Source: Candidatus Moraniibacteriota bacterium (lineage in GTDB: Bacteria; Patescibacteriota; Minisyncoccia; Moranbacterales; UBA11712). From it: a stretch of DNA of 46,508 nucleotides. Below the pieces are notes generated by a model. The model saw nothing but the letters and a program-made list of their open reading frames with translations. It was not told where the DNA came from and did not search any database. Below, piece by piece: positions 19,541 through 27,906 of this stretch; position 1 is the first letter of the stretch; each line of letters starts with the position of its first letter. Location of the stretch: assembly GCA_028716005.1 (NCBI GenBank), contig JAQUQQ010000003.1, forward strand, positions 1-46,508, in the 5' to 3' direction. The translations under genes and the position numbers were made by a program.

Positions 19541-21046
19541 TTATTTTCCGTCAATAAATTCCGTCTCTTCAACTTCTTCCCGTTTGGTTTTTTTGCGAGA
19601 AAGCAGTTCCTTGACCAAAACCAGATCACCGGAGCCGATTTCGCGGAGAATCCAAAGCGCGGCAAGGTAAATCACAAAAAGAATAATTGACCAAAAAAAG
19701 AAATAATAATTATTTCGCGGGAAGACGAAGGCCAGAGCCGACATCACGGCCGATGCCAAAATTATTTTGAAAAAGCTGGATGCTCGAAACAGATAGCCAA
19801 ACTCGCGATGAGTATAATACAGTCCCACCAGCATCACCACAAGCGCCATCAAAGCCGTTCCAGCCGCCGCGCCCATAATCCCAAAGTTTTTGATCAAGAA
19901 ATACGTCAGTACCGAATTCATGAAAAATCCGATGATTGCCGTCACCATCGGCAATTTCACTTTTCCGGCGCCATTCAGGATGAAAGTGAGAACATAAAAG
20001 ACGGTCAAAAACCCCTCCGCGATTACATAGACCGACATCACCGGCGCGGCCAGCGCGTATTTTGAGGAAAAAAATATTTTGATGATCGGCAAAGAAAAGT
20101 AGGACATCAAGAGGCATACTGGCGAAAGAAACATCACTAAAAATCGCAGAGACTGACTCACGATTTTTTTTATCTCGTCTGAATTGTTCGCCGAGGTCGA
20201 TTTCGAAATTGAAGGCAGAAGTATGATCGTGAGGGCATAAAAAAGATTGTAGGGGATTGTGCCGACGGTATAGGCGGCATTATAGAGTCCTGTCTGGAAA
20301 TCCGAGCGCAAGATTCCCTTCACAAGATAGAGGTCGATTGTGTTGAGAAGCTGATAGGCGATGAGAAAAACAGTCACCGGCCAGGCAAAAACAGCCAATT
20401 TTTTCCAATCAAATGTTCCAACGGCTTTTGTTTTTTTATACGGATCAAGCGCAAAAGCTTCGAAGAAAATAGAAAGGGGTGCCACCACATAGCCGAGAAT
20501 GGCTCCCTCAAGCGCCAAGCCGCGTGATTTCAAAAGAAGCGCGAGACCAATTATAAAAACGATGCGCAAAATGCCGCGATTTGTCTTGAGAAATGCTTGA
20601 ATTTTGAACTTGTGGATGCCAGTATAGTAATAGAAATAAAAAGAGGCCAAGGCGAAGGCGGGAATCACAAGCGAAGACAAGCGAAAAAGGTTGGTGAGCG
20701 TGGGATCATTGAGAATTCTCGCAATCACCGGCGAGAGGAGAAAGAAAATCACAGTCACCGATCCGATGATCACACTCTGGATTTTGATCGTCTGCCATTT
20801 GATAACCGGAATCAATCCCTTTTCTTTTTCGAATATTTCGCTCAAATATTTCGACATCGCCGTCGGCACGCTTTGGCCGATCAAAACAACCGTCATCGTC
20901 GTGAGCGTGACAATGATTCCAAACCGTCCGTAATCGGCCGGACCAAGCATGCGTCCCATCACGGCGTGGATAACATAAGCGGAGAGATTGTATATCACTT
21001 CGCTTATCGTCACCCAAAAAAACGATTTTACCAGGAATTTAGACAT
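19541..21046 (-). CDS. Polysaccharide biosynthesis flippase (Wzx/MATE-like)
   Basis: Many TM; YVIHAVMGRMLGPADYGRFGIIVTLTTM. Confidence 0.88.
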   Translation of the reverse strand: MSKFLVKSFFWVTISEVIYNLSAYVIHAVMGRMLGPADYGRFGIIVTLTTMTVVLIGQSVPTAMSKYLSEIFEKEKGLIPVIKWQTIKIQSVIIGSVTVIFFLLSPVIARILNDPTLTNLFRLSSLVIPAFALASFYFYYYTGIHKFKIQAFLKTNRGILRIVFIIGLALLLKSRGLALEGAILGYVVAPLSIFFEAFALDPYKKTKAVGTFDWKKLAVFAWPVTVFLIAYQLLNTIDLYLVKGILRSDFQTGLYNAAYTVGTIPYNLFYALTIILLPSISKSTSANNSDEIKKIVSQSLRFLVMFLSPVCLLMSYFSLPIIKIFFSSKYALAAPVMSVYVIAEGFLTVFYVLTFILNGAGKVKLPMVTAIIGFFMNSVLTYFLIKNFGIMGAAAGTALMALVVMLVGLYYTHREFGYLFRASSFFKIILASAVMSALAFVFPRNNYYFFFWSIILFVIYLAALWILREIGSGDLVLVKELLSRKKTKREEVEETEFIDGK

Positions 21047-21611
21047 CGATTCTTGATTTTATTTCGCTGAAAATTTCTTCTTTACCCTTCTCTCCATTTA
21101 TAATAATCATATCCCAATCCTTTATTTTTTCAGAAAATATTTTTTCCTTCGCCACCAGATATTCCATTCCCTGATCCGGTTTTCGATCGCGTTGCATAAT
21201 AATCTCTGGCTTAACATTGATAAAAAACGCAAAATCGGGTTTTTGGATATATTTTTCAGCACATAGCTTCTTCTTGTTTCCCGAAAGAAAATTTATATTC
21301 ACCACACTGTCAAAAAAATACCGGTCGGAGATGATACAATCAACTTTCAATTTCTTCGCCAATCGATTAAACCTGCAAATATCAATCAAAATCGCAATTT
21401 TACGTAATTGTATTTGCAACCAATTAGCTTTTATAACACTTTTTTCAGTCGTAGGTGTCGGACACCTACGATTTAATACGTTTCCGACTGAAAATTCCAC
21501 CGCATGGAAATAGAAAAAAGTCTTATCTTGGGACTTGAGATAATTCTTCAATAATTCGATTTGCGTTGATTTTCCCGAGCCATCAAGCCCGGAAATAGTG
21601 ATTAGTTTCAA
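21039..21611 (-). CDS. dTMP kinase-like P-loop kinase
   Basis: ISGLDGSGKSTQ, ISDRYFFDSVV, FINVKPEIIMQRDRKPDQG. Confidence 0.85.
   Translation of the reverse strand: MKLITISGLDGSGKSTQIELLKNYLKSQDKTFFYFHAVEFSVGNVLNRRCPTPTTEKSVIKANWLQIQLRKIAILIDICRFNRLAKKLKVDCIISDRYFFDSVVNINFLSGNKKKLCAEKYIQKPDFAFFINVKPEIIMQRDRKPDQGMEYLVAKEKIFSEKIKDWDMIIINGEKGKEEIFSEIKSRIDV
21450..21470. repeat. 21-nt perfect palindrome inside the dTMP kinase-like gene
   Basis: CGTAGGTGTC-G-GACACCTACG; reads in frame as RRCPTPT. Confidence 0.9.
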
Positions 21612-21615
21612 TTTT

Positions 21616-23103
21616 TTAATACATTAAGACTGCGACGGGTTCCATTTTTGCCACGGTTTTCACGATTTTATTTTCTTCCATTCCCCCGATCACTTCTTCA
21701 ACATCCTTATAGTAACTTGCATCCTGAAAAATCACCCCTTTTGATTTGGCGTTGAAGAGTTTCGCTTTTCTTTTCCGCATTTTCGCGAATAATTCTTCTT
21801 TCGTCGCCGCTTTGTCATTTTCCGGATTCTTGCGCCGGCCGGTTCCATGAGCCGCGGAAAAAAATGTCGATTCATTTTCGTCCGTTCCGACAGCGAGATA
21901 GGCGGGAGTTGACATGGAAGACGGAATGAAAACCGGTTCGCCGGTCTGGGAAAATAGCGGATGATTTTTCATGCGCGCCGGCCCGAAAGCCCGCGAAGCG
22001 TTGTTGCGATGAACCCAAACATCCTCGCCAAAATGATTTTCTCTCTCGACATATACATGCGGCATGTCATAGAGCAAATCCAGCTCGGGATCTTTACCCA
22101 AAACTTTTTCGATGGTCTGATCCAGATTGCGAGTGAGGATAGTCCGATTGGCAAAGCCATGATTGGCGGCCGCTCGATGAGCAGTGATAAACATTTTTCC
22201 TTCCGAACTGTCTTCGTGATAGGCGATATATTCCGGCTTGTTCTTGAATTCTGAGATTTTTTCATTGAGCTCATCAAACGCTTTTTTGTTTTCGGGACGA
22301 AATGTCAACTTTCCCAATTCCAAAATCACTTTCTGGCTGAAATGTTCTTTCTCTTTCGGGGTATAGAGATATGACGCGTATTGCCCAAAAAGACCGGAGC
22401 CGGTATGCATGAGAAATATATATTGCCCCTTTTTCACTCCCAGTTTTTCAGCCAGCCCTTCGTCTTCGATGTCCGTTATCTTCATGAGATCCAGAAAATG
22501 ATTTCCGGCCGCGCCCAGAATCCCCAGCCTGTATTTTCCGATCCAAAAAAATAGTTTCGGAATGGCATTCAAAATATCTCTTTCAGAAATTCCATCTTCC
22601 GAAAGATTGCCGTTTTTGAAAGTATTTTCAATTTCGTTTTTGATTCGCGTTCCGAAATATTTTGCCACCGGTTCCGTCCCTTTTCGGCATATGTCCATAA
22701 CAAGCGAATAGGGAATCGGGGTGCCGACATAGGCTTTCGTCGGAATGGGTTTCAAAAGCGCGTTGAAAAGTTTGTCTATATTTTCCTCGGTCATATCGGC
22801 ATCCTTCAGACTTGTCTTCAAGAACCGCATTCCGCAGTTGGGCGCCGTGTCGTTGATTTGAGGAAGGAAGTATTCTTTCGTAGGAACGACTGTTCCGGCC
22901 GGATTTTTCCGGCCTTTTTTGCTGTGCACATCGCTCATAGCGGCAAAATGATGAAAAACATATCCTGAAGCGGCAGTTTGCTCAATTTCTTTCAATGTAT
23001 CAATATTGGGCATCAAATCCTCCGAAACATGCAAAACCGCCGGAACTTTCATCTTGTCCGTCTGGAATTGCTTTTTGTGATTTGACAGAGATTCAATATT
23101 CAT
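21616..23103 (-). CDS. Atypical RtcB-family RNA ligase homologue
   Basis: PNCGMRFLKT, GAAGNHFLDL, MHTGSGLFGQ, AAANHGFANR, HRNNASRAFGPA, FFSAAHGTGR. Confidence 0.85.
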   Translation of the reverse strand: MNIESLSNHKKQFQTDKMKVPAVLHVSEDLMPNIDTLKEIEQTAASGYVFHHFAAMSDVHSKKGRKNPAGTVVPTKEYFLPQINDTAPNCGMRFLKTSLKDADMTEENIDKLFNALLKPIPTKAYVGTPIPYSLVMDICRKGTEPVAKYFGTRIKNEIENTFKNGNLSEDGISERDILNAIPKLFFWIGKYRLGILGAAGNHFLDLMKITDIEDEGLAEKLGVKKGQYIFLMHTGSGLFGQYASYLYTPKEKEHFSQKVILELGKLTFRPENKKAFDELNEKISEFKNKPEYIAYHEDSSEGKMFITAHRAAANHGFANRTILTRNLDQTIEKVLGKDPELDLLYDMPHVYVERENHFGEDVWVHRNNASRAFGPARMKNHPLFSQTGEPVFIPSSMSTPAYLAVGTDENESTFFSAAHGTGRRKNPENDKAATKEELFAKMRKRKAKLFNAKSKGVIFQDASYYKDVEEVIGGMEENKIVKTVAKMEPVAVLMY

Positions 23104-24251
23104 AAGCTTTCGTATACTTTTTCGTATTCCTTCACTATTTTCAGTATATCAAAATTTTCCCTCGCGAATCGCATTCCTTTTTCGCCAAGCTCGCGCCGCG
23201 CTTCCGGATTTGAATAGAGGTATAAAATATTGTCGCGGAGGGATTCTTGATCGCCTGGATTTATCAATATGCTATTCTCTTCGTTCAAAAAATATTTGAG
23301 CCTTTCCAGATTGCTCGCAATCACCGGCTTTCCGCAAGCCATCGCTTCCGGAACAACCAGCGGAATATCGAATTTCCCGGCCATCGTTTGCGCGGGAAAA
23401 ATGGAAACGTCGCACAAATTGAATATATCCTCCATGACGTAGCTCCCGTCGTCAATAAACGCTACCCGATCAAAAATGCCTTCCTTCTCAAATTTCTCTC
23501 CCACTTCTTCTTTCTTTTTCGCGTCTTTTTCGTTCTTCACCCGGACGGCGAGATGCAATTTGAAATTTTTATTAACTTTGGCAAGATCGGAAAAAACCGA
23601 AACAACGTCGTCCATATCTCCAAGCCGCACGTATTCGCCGGTGTAGTTTATCACAAAATCGTCTTCTTTCGTTTCAAATTTTCGCATCAGCTCCATTTTT
23701 TTGGGAGCGGGGGAAAACAAATTGATGTCAATTCCGGGATAAATTCTCTGAACATTTCCAAATCCAATTTTTTTGAGCTTCTCTTTGGCATAATCTGAAT
23801 AGGTGATGATGAGATCGGCGTGAATAATTTTCTTAATATGCTCATCGCTATAAATGTCGTCTCTCAAAGTCGCCAGTGTCTGAATTGTTTTCAGCTTCTT
23901 ATTCCGCAAACATATTTTCAACGCAAAAACATTCAGTTTTGTCGGTGTAAAAAAAGAATGAAGAATATCATAATCTTTCCCGCCTTTTATTAGAAATTCT
24001 TTTATAAGAAAAATATACGCCCTGGCTTTTTGCTCAAAATTCCACTCAGAGAACGTATATATATCGTGACAAACAATATTTCCTCCATTCCTAAAGCTCG
24101 GCTTTTGGAATGGCGACTTTTTGCAAGTTAGCAGGTGAATTTCAAAATCACTCGCATATTTGGCAAGAGTATAGGCGAAATCTTTTGATCCCTCGTCCCA
24201 CGGCGGGCAAATCGGGCGAGTGAGAAGCAAAATGCTTTTTTTATCAGTCAT
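23100..24251 (-). CDS. Family 4 glycosyltransferase
   Basis: VPEAMACGKPVIASNLERLKYFL...NSILINPGDQESLRDNI. Confidence 0.85.
   Translation of the reverse strand: MTDKKSILLLTRPICPPWDEGSKDFAYTLAKYASDFEIHLLTCKKSPFQKPSFRNGGNIVCHDIYTFSEWNFEQKARAYIFLIKEFLIKGGKDYDILHSFFTPTKLNVFALKICLRNKKLKTIQTLATLRDDIYSDEHIKKIIHADLIITYSDYAKEKLKKIGFGNVQRIYPGIDINLFSPAPKKMELMRKFETKEDDFVINYTGEYVRLGDMDDVVSVFSDLAKVNKNFKLHLAVRVKNEKDAKKKEEVGEKFEKEGIFDRVAFIDDGSYVMEDIFNLCDVSIFPAQTMAGKFDIPLVVPEAMACGKPVIASNLERLKYFLNEENSILINPGDQESLRDNILYLYSNPEARRELGEKGMRFARENFDILKIVKEYEKVYESL
24085..24113. repeat. 29-nt palindrome inside a GT4 gene
   Basis: CCATTCCTAAAGC-TCG-GCTTTTGGAATGG; reads PFQKPSFRNG in frame. Confidence 0.85.
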
Positions 24252-24298
24252 AATTTAGCTTATATAAGGTAATATTTAGATTCTTATAATTGCAACTA

Positions 24299-24448
24299 TT
24301 GACAAATTGCCAGATTCTACTATAATGCTCACAATACGAATCAGGAGGAAGCCCATGTAGACAATAGCCCCAATTACACTCAAGCCCCGAAAAAGCTGAG
24401 CTGAAAGAGATTAATCTCAATCAGCAATACTGCCAGGGGCTTTTTTAT
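24299..24448 (+). ncRNA. Candidate free-standing small RNA (promoter 24299-24326, RNA from about 24333)
   Basis: TTGACA-16-TATAAT; AGGAGG-6-ATG-TAG; nested stems GCCCC..GGGGC, GCTGA..TCAGC, GAGATTAATCTC; then TTTTTT. Confidence 0.6.
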
Positions 24449-24816
24449 TTCCCCAAATTCTTATAAATCTTATACTTCAAATCATCCGCGCTTACTTCTA
24501 TGGAAACACTGACGCCGTTGCTTGTGTCCAAATCCAGAACAGGAACAATTCTCTGCTCGGCGCCTTTTTCGATTTCGACTTTGTTGCCGGAAACCTTTTT
24601 CCCATCAATAAAAATATTATAATCATATGCCATTTTTTTGCCCTCATGATTTTCAATCGCGAAATTGAGCGAATCATCGCGCGGATTTTCAAAATAGACC
24701 ACACTCCATGCTTTTTTGTAATCGTAGTTATGATTCTTCGCTTCAACGACAAAAAGCACCGAAAAACTCACGATGAGCAAAATTATGGTGGCGATGATGA
24801 TTATTTTGCTGGACAT
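24445..24816 (-). CDS. Hypothetical small TM-anchored protein
   Basis: MSSKIIIIATIILLIVSFSVLFVVEAKN...; extracellular beta-type tail. Confidence 0.65.
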   Translation of the reverse strand: MSSKIIIIATIILLIVSFSVLFVVEAKNHNYDYKKAWSVVYFENPRDDSLNFAIENHEGKKMAYDYNIFIDGKKVSGNKVEIEKGAEQRIVPVLDLDTSNGVSVSIEVSADDLKYKIYKNLGK

Positions 24817-24824
24817 AATTTTCC

Positions 24825-24885: not shown

Positions 24886-26745
24886 TTAATTTCTTTTGAA
24901 TACAGCTATATAATTTGAACTGTATATCTTCGAAAAATCCGGATATTTTTCGAAACTGTTTCCTTCAAGCTGGACATTGAGCGCGATATAATTCACGCCA
25001 GTTTCCGAAAAACAAGCCTGCCCTTCCGGCGATTCCGGATTCGAAATCATGTCCCGCGTGCAGGTTTCGCGAGGCTTGGTCGAGTCAATATAGCGAAACA
25101 ACATACCTCGGCTCAAAGGATAATTATAGTCTTTCATGAAAAACAACTTATACCAAGAATCGCCGGATATGTTCACGTGGTCTTTGAGCAAAATATCTTG
25201 CGATGTATCCAGCTTCTCCGCCAGATATTTGGCCGAGTGGAATGTTTCCATCACTTCCTGAAATTGCGGCCGGACTTTGAAGGCGTCGGCGCTGTCCGAG
25301 AGCCCATCCGTAATCACAAAAAACAGCAAGACAAAAAGAAAGGCGGTCGAGAGAAAAATTGTCGAAGATTTTCGGAAAAGTCTCATGAGCTCCACCAAAC
25401 TGAATGCCGCCAGCAAAGAAAAGGGTAGATACAGATAATTCCCGATCCGGTCGCTCGGAATATTGACATAAAGCCACCCCGGCTTCCAACTCATAATCAT
25501 CAAAACGAGCGCCCAGGCAAAAGCAAAACTAAATTTGTAATCTTTTCTTTTGAAGGACAGAAAGAGAAGGGCAAATCCCAGAGCGCCCAGAATCAATCGC
25601 GCGCTTCCCGCGTTCGCTTCCAACTGGCCAAGGTTCAGCCCGATTCTTGTGATTTTGGTCGGCTCGCCGGTTGCTTGAGCGACTGCCGCGGGATTGAAAT
25701 AGGAGGGCGTGAATATAAATAAAAAGTAAAAAGCCAAAAGTAAAAAGATGGCTATCGGGAAGGGTTTCAAAAATATTTTCAGCCAATCGCCGATGATTTT
25801 GAAAATCCGTTCGAAATTCAGCGCGAGATACGCCAAAACAACCGCCGCAATCGAATAAAGCAGAATAAAAGCGGACAAATGATGGGTATAAAGAAGCCCG
25901 GCCGCCGAAAAAAGAAAAAGTCCCGCGAAACTGGAATCTTTTTCAGAAAACGCCCGATACAAAAAATACAAAGCGACCGGAATCAGCATGTTGCCGATGA
26001 TATTTCCAACCACTCCGCCGCTCACGTATTTCCCCTGGGGGGCATTGATGGCGTAAAGAACGCCGGAAACGAAAAAAATCATGGCCGCTGTCTTTGGACT
26101 TTGGAATATCCTCCCGGCCAATATTGACAAAGTGAAAATTCCAACGATATTCAAAAAAAGCAGAACAAGAACCGGCATGGCGCTCATGATACTCGCGCCG
26201 CTCACGAGATTCACTACCGCGAAAACAATATGTTCGCCGATGATAAAGTCCGGCATTCCATAATCAGGGAGGCTCCCCGTGTCAACAATTTTCTGGACCC
26301 AGAACATATGGTGGCCAAGGTCCGTTGAAGAGGGGATAATCGTGTCAGAAAGATATGTCGTCCGCATGAAAACCGCCAAAAAAATCGAAATCAAAATGAA
26401 AATAGCCTGCCAGTAGGAAAATTCAAAATAATTGCGCGATATTTCTTCTTCCTGCTTTTTCTTTGTTTTTTTTCGGAATCGCAATTGAAAAACAATATAG
26501 CAGAGCAACGAGAAAGCAATGATCACTCCAATCAGCACCATCCCGTTCAAAAAAATATGCAGCCGGTTGAGCGCCAGAACCAAAAGATCCACCGAAATGA
26601 GACTCATCGGAACGACTAAAACCGCTTTTTCAAAAAAAGAAATTTTTTCATTCTTCCAACCAAAAACAGCAAGGAGCAGAAAAAAACCCGGGAGGACAAA
26701 AATGAAGGGAAAAGTCAGAACAAGTTTTATTAGACTAAAAATCAT
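24886..26745 (-). CDS. Large polytopic membrane protein, possible GT-C-like/envelope protein
   Basis: 619 aa, many TM, large C-terminal soluble segment. Confidence 0.6.
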   Translation of the reverse strand: MIFSLIKLVLTFPFIFVLPGFFLLLAVFGWKNEKISFFEKAVLVVPMSLISVDLLVLALNRLHIFLNGMVLIGVIIAFSLLCYIVFQLRFRKKTKKKQEEEISRNYFEFSYWQAIFILISIFLAVFMRTTYLSDTIIPSSTDLGHHMFWVQKIVDTGSLPDYGMPDFIIGEHIVFAVVNLVSGASIMSAMPVLVLLFLNIVGIFTLSILAGRIFQSPKTAAMIFFVSGVLYAINAPQGKYVSGGVVGNIIGNMLIPVALYFLYRAFSEKDSSFAGLFLFSAAGLLYTHHLSAFILLYSIAAVVLAYLALNFERIFKIIGDWLKIFLKPFPIAIFLLLAFYFLFIFTPSYFNPAAVAQATGEPTKITRIGLNLGQLEANAGSARLILGALGFALLFLSFKRKDYKFSFAFAWALVLMIMSWKPGWLYVNIPSDRIGNYLYLPFSLLAAFSLVELMRLFRKSSTIFLSTAFLFVLLFFVITDGLSDSADAFKVRPQFQEVMETFHSAKYLAEKLDTSQDILLKDHVNISGDSWYKLFFMKDYNYPLSRGMLFRYIDSTKPRETCTRDMISNPESPEGQACFSETGVNYIALNVQLEGNSFEKYPDFSKIYSSNYIAVFKRN

Positions 26746-26783: not shown

Positions 26784-26818
26784 TAATCCAAATTACGAAT
26801 TACGAATTACCAATTACC
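26784..26818. repeat. Tandem heptamer array (AATTACG/AATTACC) overlapping a GT4 stop codon
   Basis: TAATCCA AATTACG AATTACG AATTACC AATTACC. Confidence 0.88.
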
Positions 26819-27906
26819 TCGAGATATTTTTTGGCTATTTTTTCCCAGCTATAATTCTCAATCGTAAATTTCTTCGCCTTCTTTCCAAACTCCCGGCGAA
26901 AATCATCATCAGAAATAAAATCGTTGATTTTCTTCACGTAGCCCGGCGCGTCTCCCGGCTCGACCAAAAATCCGTTCTCTCCGTCCTTGATTGCGTCTTT
27001 CAGCCCCTCAAGATTTGAGGCAACCACAACCCTTCCGCACGCGCCGGCTTCAATCACGTTTATGCCGAAACCTTCCATAGTGCCTTCAATTCTTATATTC
27101 GGGGAAACGACAATGTCCGCGGTGTTGAGCAGGGTGATTTTTTGCTCCTCGGGGATCGAAGGAACAAGCCAGACTCTTTTTTCAAGGTTGTTTTCTTTGA
27201 CGGCTTTTTCGCAAGCCGGAAAATCGTCTTTGTCTCCGGCTGTGTTTTTCCCCACCCGGGCTCCGGCCGCGACCATTATGATGTTTTCTGGCAAACGGGG
27301 CATCACTTGGCCGATGAACCAGCTTGTCCCCTTGTGCGGGACGAATCTTCCCAACCGTAAAATCACCTTTTTATCCGAAATATCAGTCCCCAGAATTTCG
27401 GAAATGCCATTTCTCTCGCTTTCCTTTGAAAGTTCGCCCACATTCACTCCATTGGGGATAAAGACGCAAAGATTCCTGTTGATGCCGGCTTTTTCCGCTT
27501 CTTCTATGGTTGAATTTCCAACCATCAGTAGCTTGTCGAGTTTCTTGAGGGAAACAATATTGATGCTTTTGTATATTTTCGAAAGGATTCCTTTTTTGTT
27601 CGCAAAAGTGATGTCCAGCCCATGAACGACGCAAAAGAATTTTTTTCGGGAATGGAACATTTTCACTCCTTCTCCGAGCGGTGCCAAAACTCCGTTTCCC
27701 AAGAGACACGCGTCATAGCGCCCCATCAAAAAAAGCATCTTGAAAAAAGCCGCGGGCAAAAAAATCGGCAACCAGGCTTTTCCTTTGCTGTTGGCGATCA
27801 CTTTTACTTCGGCGATTTTTTTGAGGCTTTCCGCAAGATTGAAATTCTGGCTTTCGACCCCTCCCCGGATTGGCGGATAAGAGTGAGAAACAAAGAGTAT
27901 TTTCAT
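26800..27906 (-). CDS. Family 4 glycosyltransferase
   Basis: HSYPPIRGGVESQNFNLAESL; LRLGRFVPHKGTSWFIG; EGFGINVIEAGACGRVVVASNLEG. Confidence 0.9.
   Translation of the reverse strand: MKILFVSHSYPPIRGGVESQNFNLAESLKKIAEVKVIANSKGKAWLPIFLPAAFFKMLFLMGRYDACLLGNGVLAPLGEGVKMFHSRKKFFCVVHGLDITFANKKGILSKIYKSINIVSLKKLDKLLMVGNSTIEEAEKAGINRNLCVFIPNGVNVGELSKESERNGISEILGTDISDKKVILRLGRFVPHKGTSWFIGQVMPRLPENIIMVAAGARVGKNTAGDKDDFPACEKAVKENNLEKRVWLVPSIPEEQKITLLNTADIVVSPNIRIEGTMEGFGINVIEAGACGRVVVASNLEGLKDAIKDGENGFLVEPGDAPGYVKKINDFISDDDFRREFGKKAKKFTIENYSWEKIAKKYLEVIGNS

Follow-up and report, generated by a model that had tools for sequence, protein, structure and literature searches.

An orphan, lineage-specific candidate transcription unit with an ATG-TAG pair between two glycosyltransferase-operon genes of a genome related to Candidatus Moranbacteria

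The operon and the parts of the unit

The window, i.e., the whole stretch of 46,508 nucleotides that was analysed, comes from a genome assembly of 1,058,858 bases in 116 contigs (~1.06 Mb, 86% complete) related to Candidatus Moranbacteria. Its minus strand carries an operon which includes a glycosyltransferase gene (26800-27906), a gene for a DUF6541 protein (24886-26745), a hypothetical gene (24445-24822), a further glycosyltransferase gene (23100-24251; Pfam Glycos_transf_1, 2e-17), and the genes for RtcB (21616-23103), a thymidylate-kinase-like protein (21039-21611) and a polysaccharide flippase (19541-21046). The hypothetical protein had no Pfam match and is conserved in 8/8 family genomes; its two relatives in genome_contigs are both Candidatus Moranbacteria. 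The gene for the RtcB-type RNA ligase stands directly between the glycosyltransferase and the thymidylate-kinase-like genes, and a gene of this type was also seen after the glycosyltransferase gene in two Moranbacteria records.

The unit studied here lies on the plus strand and occupies a gap of 193 bp separating the hypothetical gene, upstream in the operon, from the glycosyltransferase gene downstream of it. The initial annotation had described a promoter, a Shine-Dalgarno (SD) sequence, an ATG-TAG pair, paired stems and a T tract in this gap, and all of them were recovered where it had placed them. The promoter, TTGACA-N16-TATAAT (24299-24326; -35 at 24299-24304, -10 at 24321-24326), matches the consensus in 12 of 12 positions. 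The RNA is predicted to start around 24333, 7 nt past the -10 element, and its end was placed in the T tract at 24441-24446, giving a predicted transcript of ~114 nt (24333-24446); the independent transcript of about 110 nt proposed earlier is thus supported by these two sequence signals, promoter and terminator. The SD sequence AGGAGG (24343-24348) is followed, at a canonical spacing of six nucleotides (AAGCCC), by the ATG (24355-24357) and directly by the TAG (24358-24360). A motif scan placed the first GCCCC at 24367-24371. The intrinsic terminator (24382-24446) consists of an outer stem AAGCCCC/GGGGCTT, with GCCCC at 24384-24388 and GGGGC at 24436-24440, an inner stem in which GCTGA (24400-24404) and GAGAT (24407-24411) face ATCTC (24414-24418) and TCAGC (24421-24425), and six T. 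The hypothetical gene on the minus strand ends in a stop codon (24445-24447) that shares nucleotides with the T tract, so that the unit is tightly packed against this gene. In its own promoter and intrinsic terminator, with no coding frame between them, the unit has the composition of an independent sRNA gene. Both neighbours are on the minus strand and no plus-strand gene lies behind the unit, as had been stated earlier; a leader-peptide attenuator was rejected for this reason.

Searches for relatives and the case for an insertion

No Rfam family matched the unit at the gathering threshold, and a permissive search gave matches that were all on the opposite strand and far below threshold, so the unit remains novel with respect to Rfam. 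It was absent from 7/7 family relatives. Searches by DNA similarity found no copy in 132 genomes of the order or 387 genomes of the class, only short partial matches of at most 37 nt; three of these at class level had E values of ~8e-4 to 1e-3. Of the partial matches inspected, one (G058) lies within a coding frame and another (G002) has only terminator-like sequence in common with the unit. Phages and viral contigs gave no match, and plasmids a single one, of 31 nt within a helicase gene. No donor gene was found in these searches. The proposal of a novel small RNA, taken as a functional and conserved RNA, is not supported, given the absence of the unit from the family relatives and from all the larger collections, and the conservation of promoter and stems on which it was to be checked was found in none of the relatives tested; since these include no second genome of the species, a lineage-specific RNA is possible. 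The unit not being conserved at the distances tested, a selected RNA function has no argument in its favour.

In all seven family relatives and in two Moranbacteria records the two genes that flank the unit in the window overlap or lie no more than ~15 bp apart, and among the genomes compared the 193-bp gap occurs only in the window. A 10-bp direct repeat, ATTCTTATAA, is found at 24280-24289 and again at 24457-24466, the second copy falling within the 3' end of the hypothetical gene. The two copies are spaced by 177 bp, and the chance of such a repeat between the flanks was estimated at ~0.5% from the same spacing elsewhere in the window and at 1% from a Markov model. The insert would accordingly comprise ~170 bp (24290-24456), which are absent from relatives. 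When the flanks were joined at the repeat in silico, the hypothetical frame stayed open to a stop after KIYKNLNITLYKLNYD, ending over ATGACTGA of the glycosyltransferase start. The resulting overlap resembles the gene overlap of the relatives, whose junction sequences nonetheless differ from the joined flank; the joined frame supports an insertion at the repeat, short of proof. Taken together, the abutting gene pair in relatives, the direct repeat and the open joined frame point to what is probably a lineage-specific insertion rather than a conserved RNA family. On the minus strand across the insert (24290-24430) we also observed an open frame of 43 codons with many hydrophobic residues, lacking a convincing ribosome-binding site; it had no Pfam match.

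Promoter, start-stop pair and folding

The promoter at 24299-24326 is the sole 12/12 match within the 9 kb scanned. Perfect TTGACA-N15-18-TATAAT promoters occur at 19 sites in the genome, as compared to 0 for the reversed control, which makes the consensus meaningful in this genome and an independent transcript of ~114 nt likely. A simulation of 20 Mb with a first-order Markov model gave 5 perfect promoters (~0.25 per Mb per strand) and not a single combination of promoter, AGGAGG and ATG, which places the arrangement far beyond chance. Judging from these signals, the unit is very probably transcribed. By eye, some of the 19 perfect promoters appear to be followed by starts of housekeeping genes (clp behind a GCACTC inverted repeat, groEL, and EF-Tu).

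A genome of the same genus has a 16S rRNA with an intact, matching anti-SD CACCTCCTTT (sequence GGATCACCTCCTTTCT). The assembly under study, 86% complete, gave no 16S rRNA match. In genomes of the same family, 16S matches were long or split, e.g., 1894 bp in G001, suggestive of insertions inside the 16S gene.

Start signals of the form TATAAT-GGAGG-ATG were found five times in the genome. Four of them lead into open frames of 104-180 codons, and the unit, with its ATG at 24355, is the only one with an immediate stop; it thus resembles an mRNA start without its gene, and the ATG-TAG pair may be a leftover of a lost gene. Beyond the TAG the frame remains open as far as a TGA at 24397-24399. An SD followed by an ATG and directly by a stop is also what a regulatory start-stop site consists of. 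Within the taxonomic order, SD-ATG-TAG gave ~30 matches, fewer than the reversed control, and promoter-linked SD-ATG-TAR was found in three other genomes among the 387 of the class: in two of them (G365 and G373) inside long coding frames, and in the third (G254) between genes, in a short stretch that lacks an obvious -35. From its sequence, a start-stop regulatory RNA is possible, with no comparative support. Such an RNA could hold or titrate initiating ribosomes at the start-stop pair, or its unpaired GCCCC patches could act in trans. A strong promoter, a strong SD and a terminator, all intact, would suit this function, and a ribosome profiling paper (PMC11955535) reports start-stop sites of regulatory potential for E. 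coli and putative ones for Campylobacter. However, no part of the unit is conserved in family, order or class, SD-ATG-TAG does not rise above its control, and evidence for a target is lacking; we regard a functional regulatory RNA as unlikely, although it is the strongest of the alternatives.

The predicted transcript folds better than most of its shuffles (z = -2.2; 4/200 equally good). According to the initial annotation, the GCCCC at 24367 could compete for the GGGGC of the terminator and give two alternative folds. Competing folds do exist, but the strongest competitor is another one: in the minimum-energy fold of the full transcript (-27.5 kcal/mol), GAGGAAGCCC (24345-24354), which includes most of the SD, pairs with GGGCUUUUUU of the terminator, i.e., its 3' side and the U tract. 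Forcing the terminator hairpin gave -25.6 kcal/mol, and forcing the pairing of GCCCC 24367 gave -23.7 kcal/mol. As the RNA is being transcribed, the local hairpin of the terminator should be the first to form. Since a purine-rich SD pairs easily with a U tract, a competing fold alone is not evidence for a switch.

A long rod-shaped fold was observed elsewhere in the same genome, at about 1583-1745 of locus L082 (contig C94), behind another perfect promoter (C94:1623-1650). It covers ~163 nt with -65.4 kcal/mol and z = -6.1, no shuffle being as good, and its strand gave no Rfam match. On visual impression alone, the rod and its central opening are reminiscent of 6S RNA. This fold may be a better candidate for a non-coding RNA than the unit at 24299-24448.

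Interpretation and comparison with known systems

Sequence comparison establishes the signals of the unit and their absence from the relatives. The reading which we prefer, with a probability of roughly 0.6, is that of a lineage-specific, self-contained transcription unit, running antisense between genes of the glycosyltransferase operon and giving a terminated RNA of ~114 nt, which is either a relic or a young, "moron-like" insertion. An insertion of ~170 bp carrying a promoter, a ribosome-binding site, an immediate stop and a terminator would have landed between genes that abut in relatives. The RNA would be made and terminated, and a ribosome binding at AGGAGG-AUG would be released at once, so that no protein results. 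The insertion could be what remains of a small gene minus its coding part, or a young RNA unit without a settled function. If it acts at all, it most likely does so locally: its transcription would converge with that of the operon, and its RNA would be perfectly complementary to the intercistronic spacer in the operon mRNA. Against this reading it can be said that the insertion depends on a repeat with a 0.5-1% chance and on relatives of other species, that the spacer could have grown otherwise, and, for the relic origin, that neither a donor gene nor a second copy was found.

A local effect could also be the selected role of the unit. Transcription would then oppose the operon, and the RNA would pair with the intercistronic spacer, resulting in less glycosyltransferase, RtcB and products of the following genes. 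The position between two minus-strand operon genes, with the promoter aimed at the upstream gene and the T tract over its stop codon, agrees with such a cis-acting antisense unit. The same gene pair works in relatives without it, however, lack of conservation speaks against selected control, and any transcript from the opposite strand is complementary by necessity, so this role appears slightly less likely than a regulatory RNA of the start-stop or trans-acting kind. A miniature, MITE-like mobile element carrying promoter and terminator incidentally would explain the 10-bp direct repeat at both ends, similar to a target-site duplication, and the empty site in relatives; but the insert ends bear no clear terminal inverted repeats, none worthy of the name, and no second copy was found in the genome or any relative, and we consider this origin improbable. 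Still less probable is a chance assembly of promoter-, SD- and terminator-like sequence giving no transcript: conservation is absent, and in the region as a whole promoter-like and terminator-like sites are as numerous as in shuffles, but the joint motif failed to appear in the 20 Mb of simulated sequence and the excess of perfect promoters over the control speaks against it. The least probable proposal is that in a newly acquired RNA a ribosome on the start-stop pair would mask SD-AAGCCC, choosing between the terminator and the long-range fold and so regulating how much antisense transcription reads through into the operon gene next to the unit.

We classify the unit as a small orphan transcription unit specific to its lineage, relic or young. 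If it is transcribed, a compact operon in a Patescibacteria lineage with small genomes has newly gained an RNA transcription unit, which offers a clean natural test for any effect of an isolated AUG-stop. A limited search for literature on the Candidate Phyla Radiation found no paper on its small RNAs or on start-site mapping.

With independent intergenic sRNAs, the unit has in common its own promoter, the length of ~114 nt, a terminator hairpin and unpaired C-rich patches; it differs in having no conservation, known target or Rfam family, and in the full SD-ATG at its 5' end. In leader-peptide attenuators of the trp type, an SD and a short frame precede a terminator, and segments compete for one pairing partner. 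The unit resembles them in both respects, but has no structural gene downstream on its strand, and its frame is one codon long. The Campylobacter profiling paper, which cites work on start-stop sites by Meydan in 2019, gives 18 putative start-stop sites, cites regulatory potential in E. coli, and lists the sites of Campylobacter jejuni as internal, out-of-frame and 2-3 codons long (PMC11955535). The unit shares with the sites of both species the start codon followed by an immediate stop, and adds a strong SD; in contrast to the internal Campylobacter sites, its pair stands alone on its own short transcript, where initiation is predicted. Phage morons are compact promoter-to-terminator units inserted between genes that are adjacent in relatives. 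The present unit does not lie in a phage and has neither a coding frame nor a known donor, but it resembles the morons as a compact insert, from promoter to terminator, between two genes which are adjacent in its relatives.
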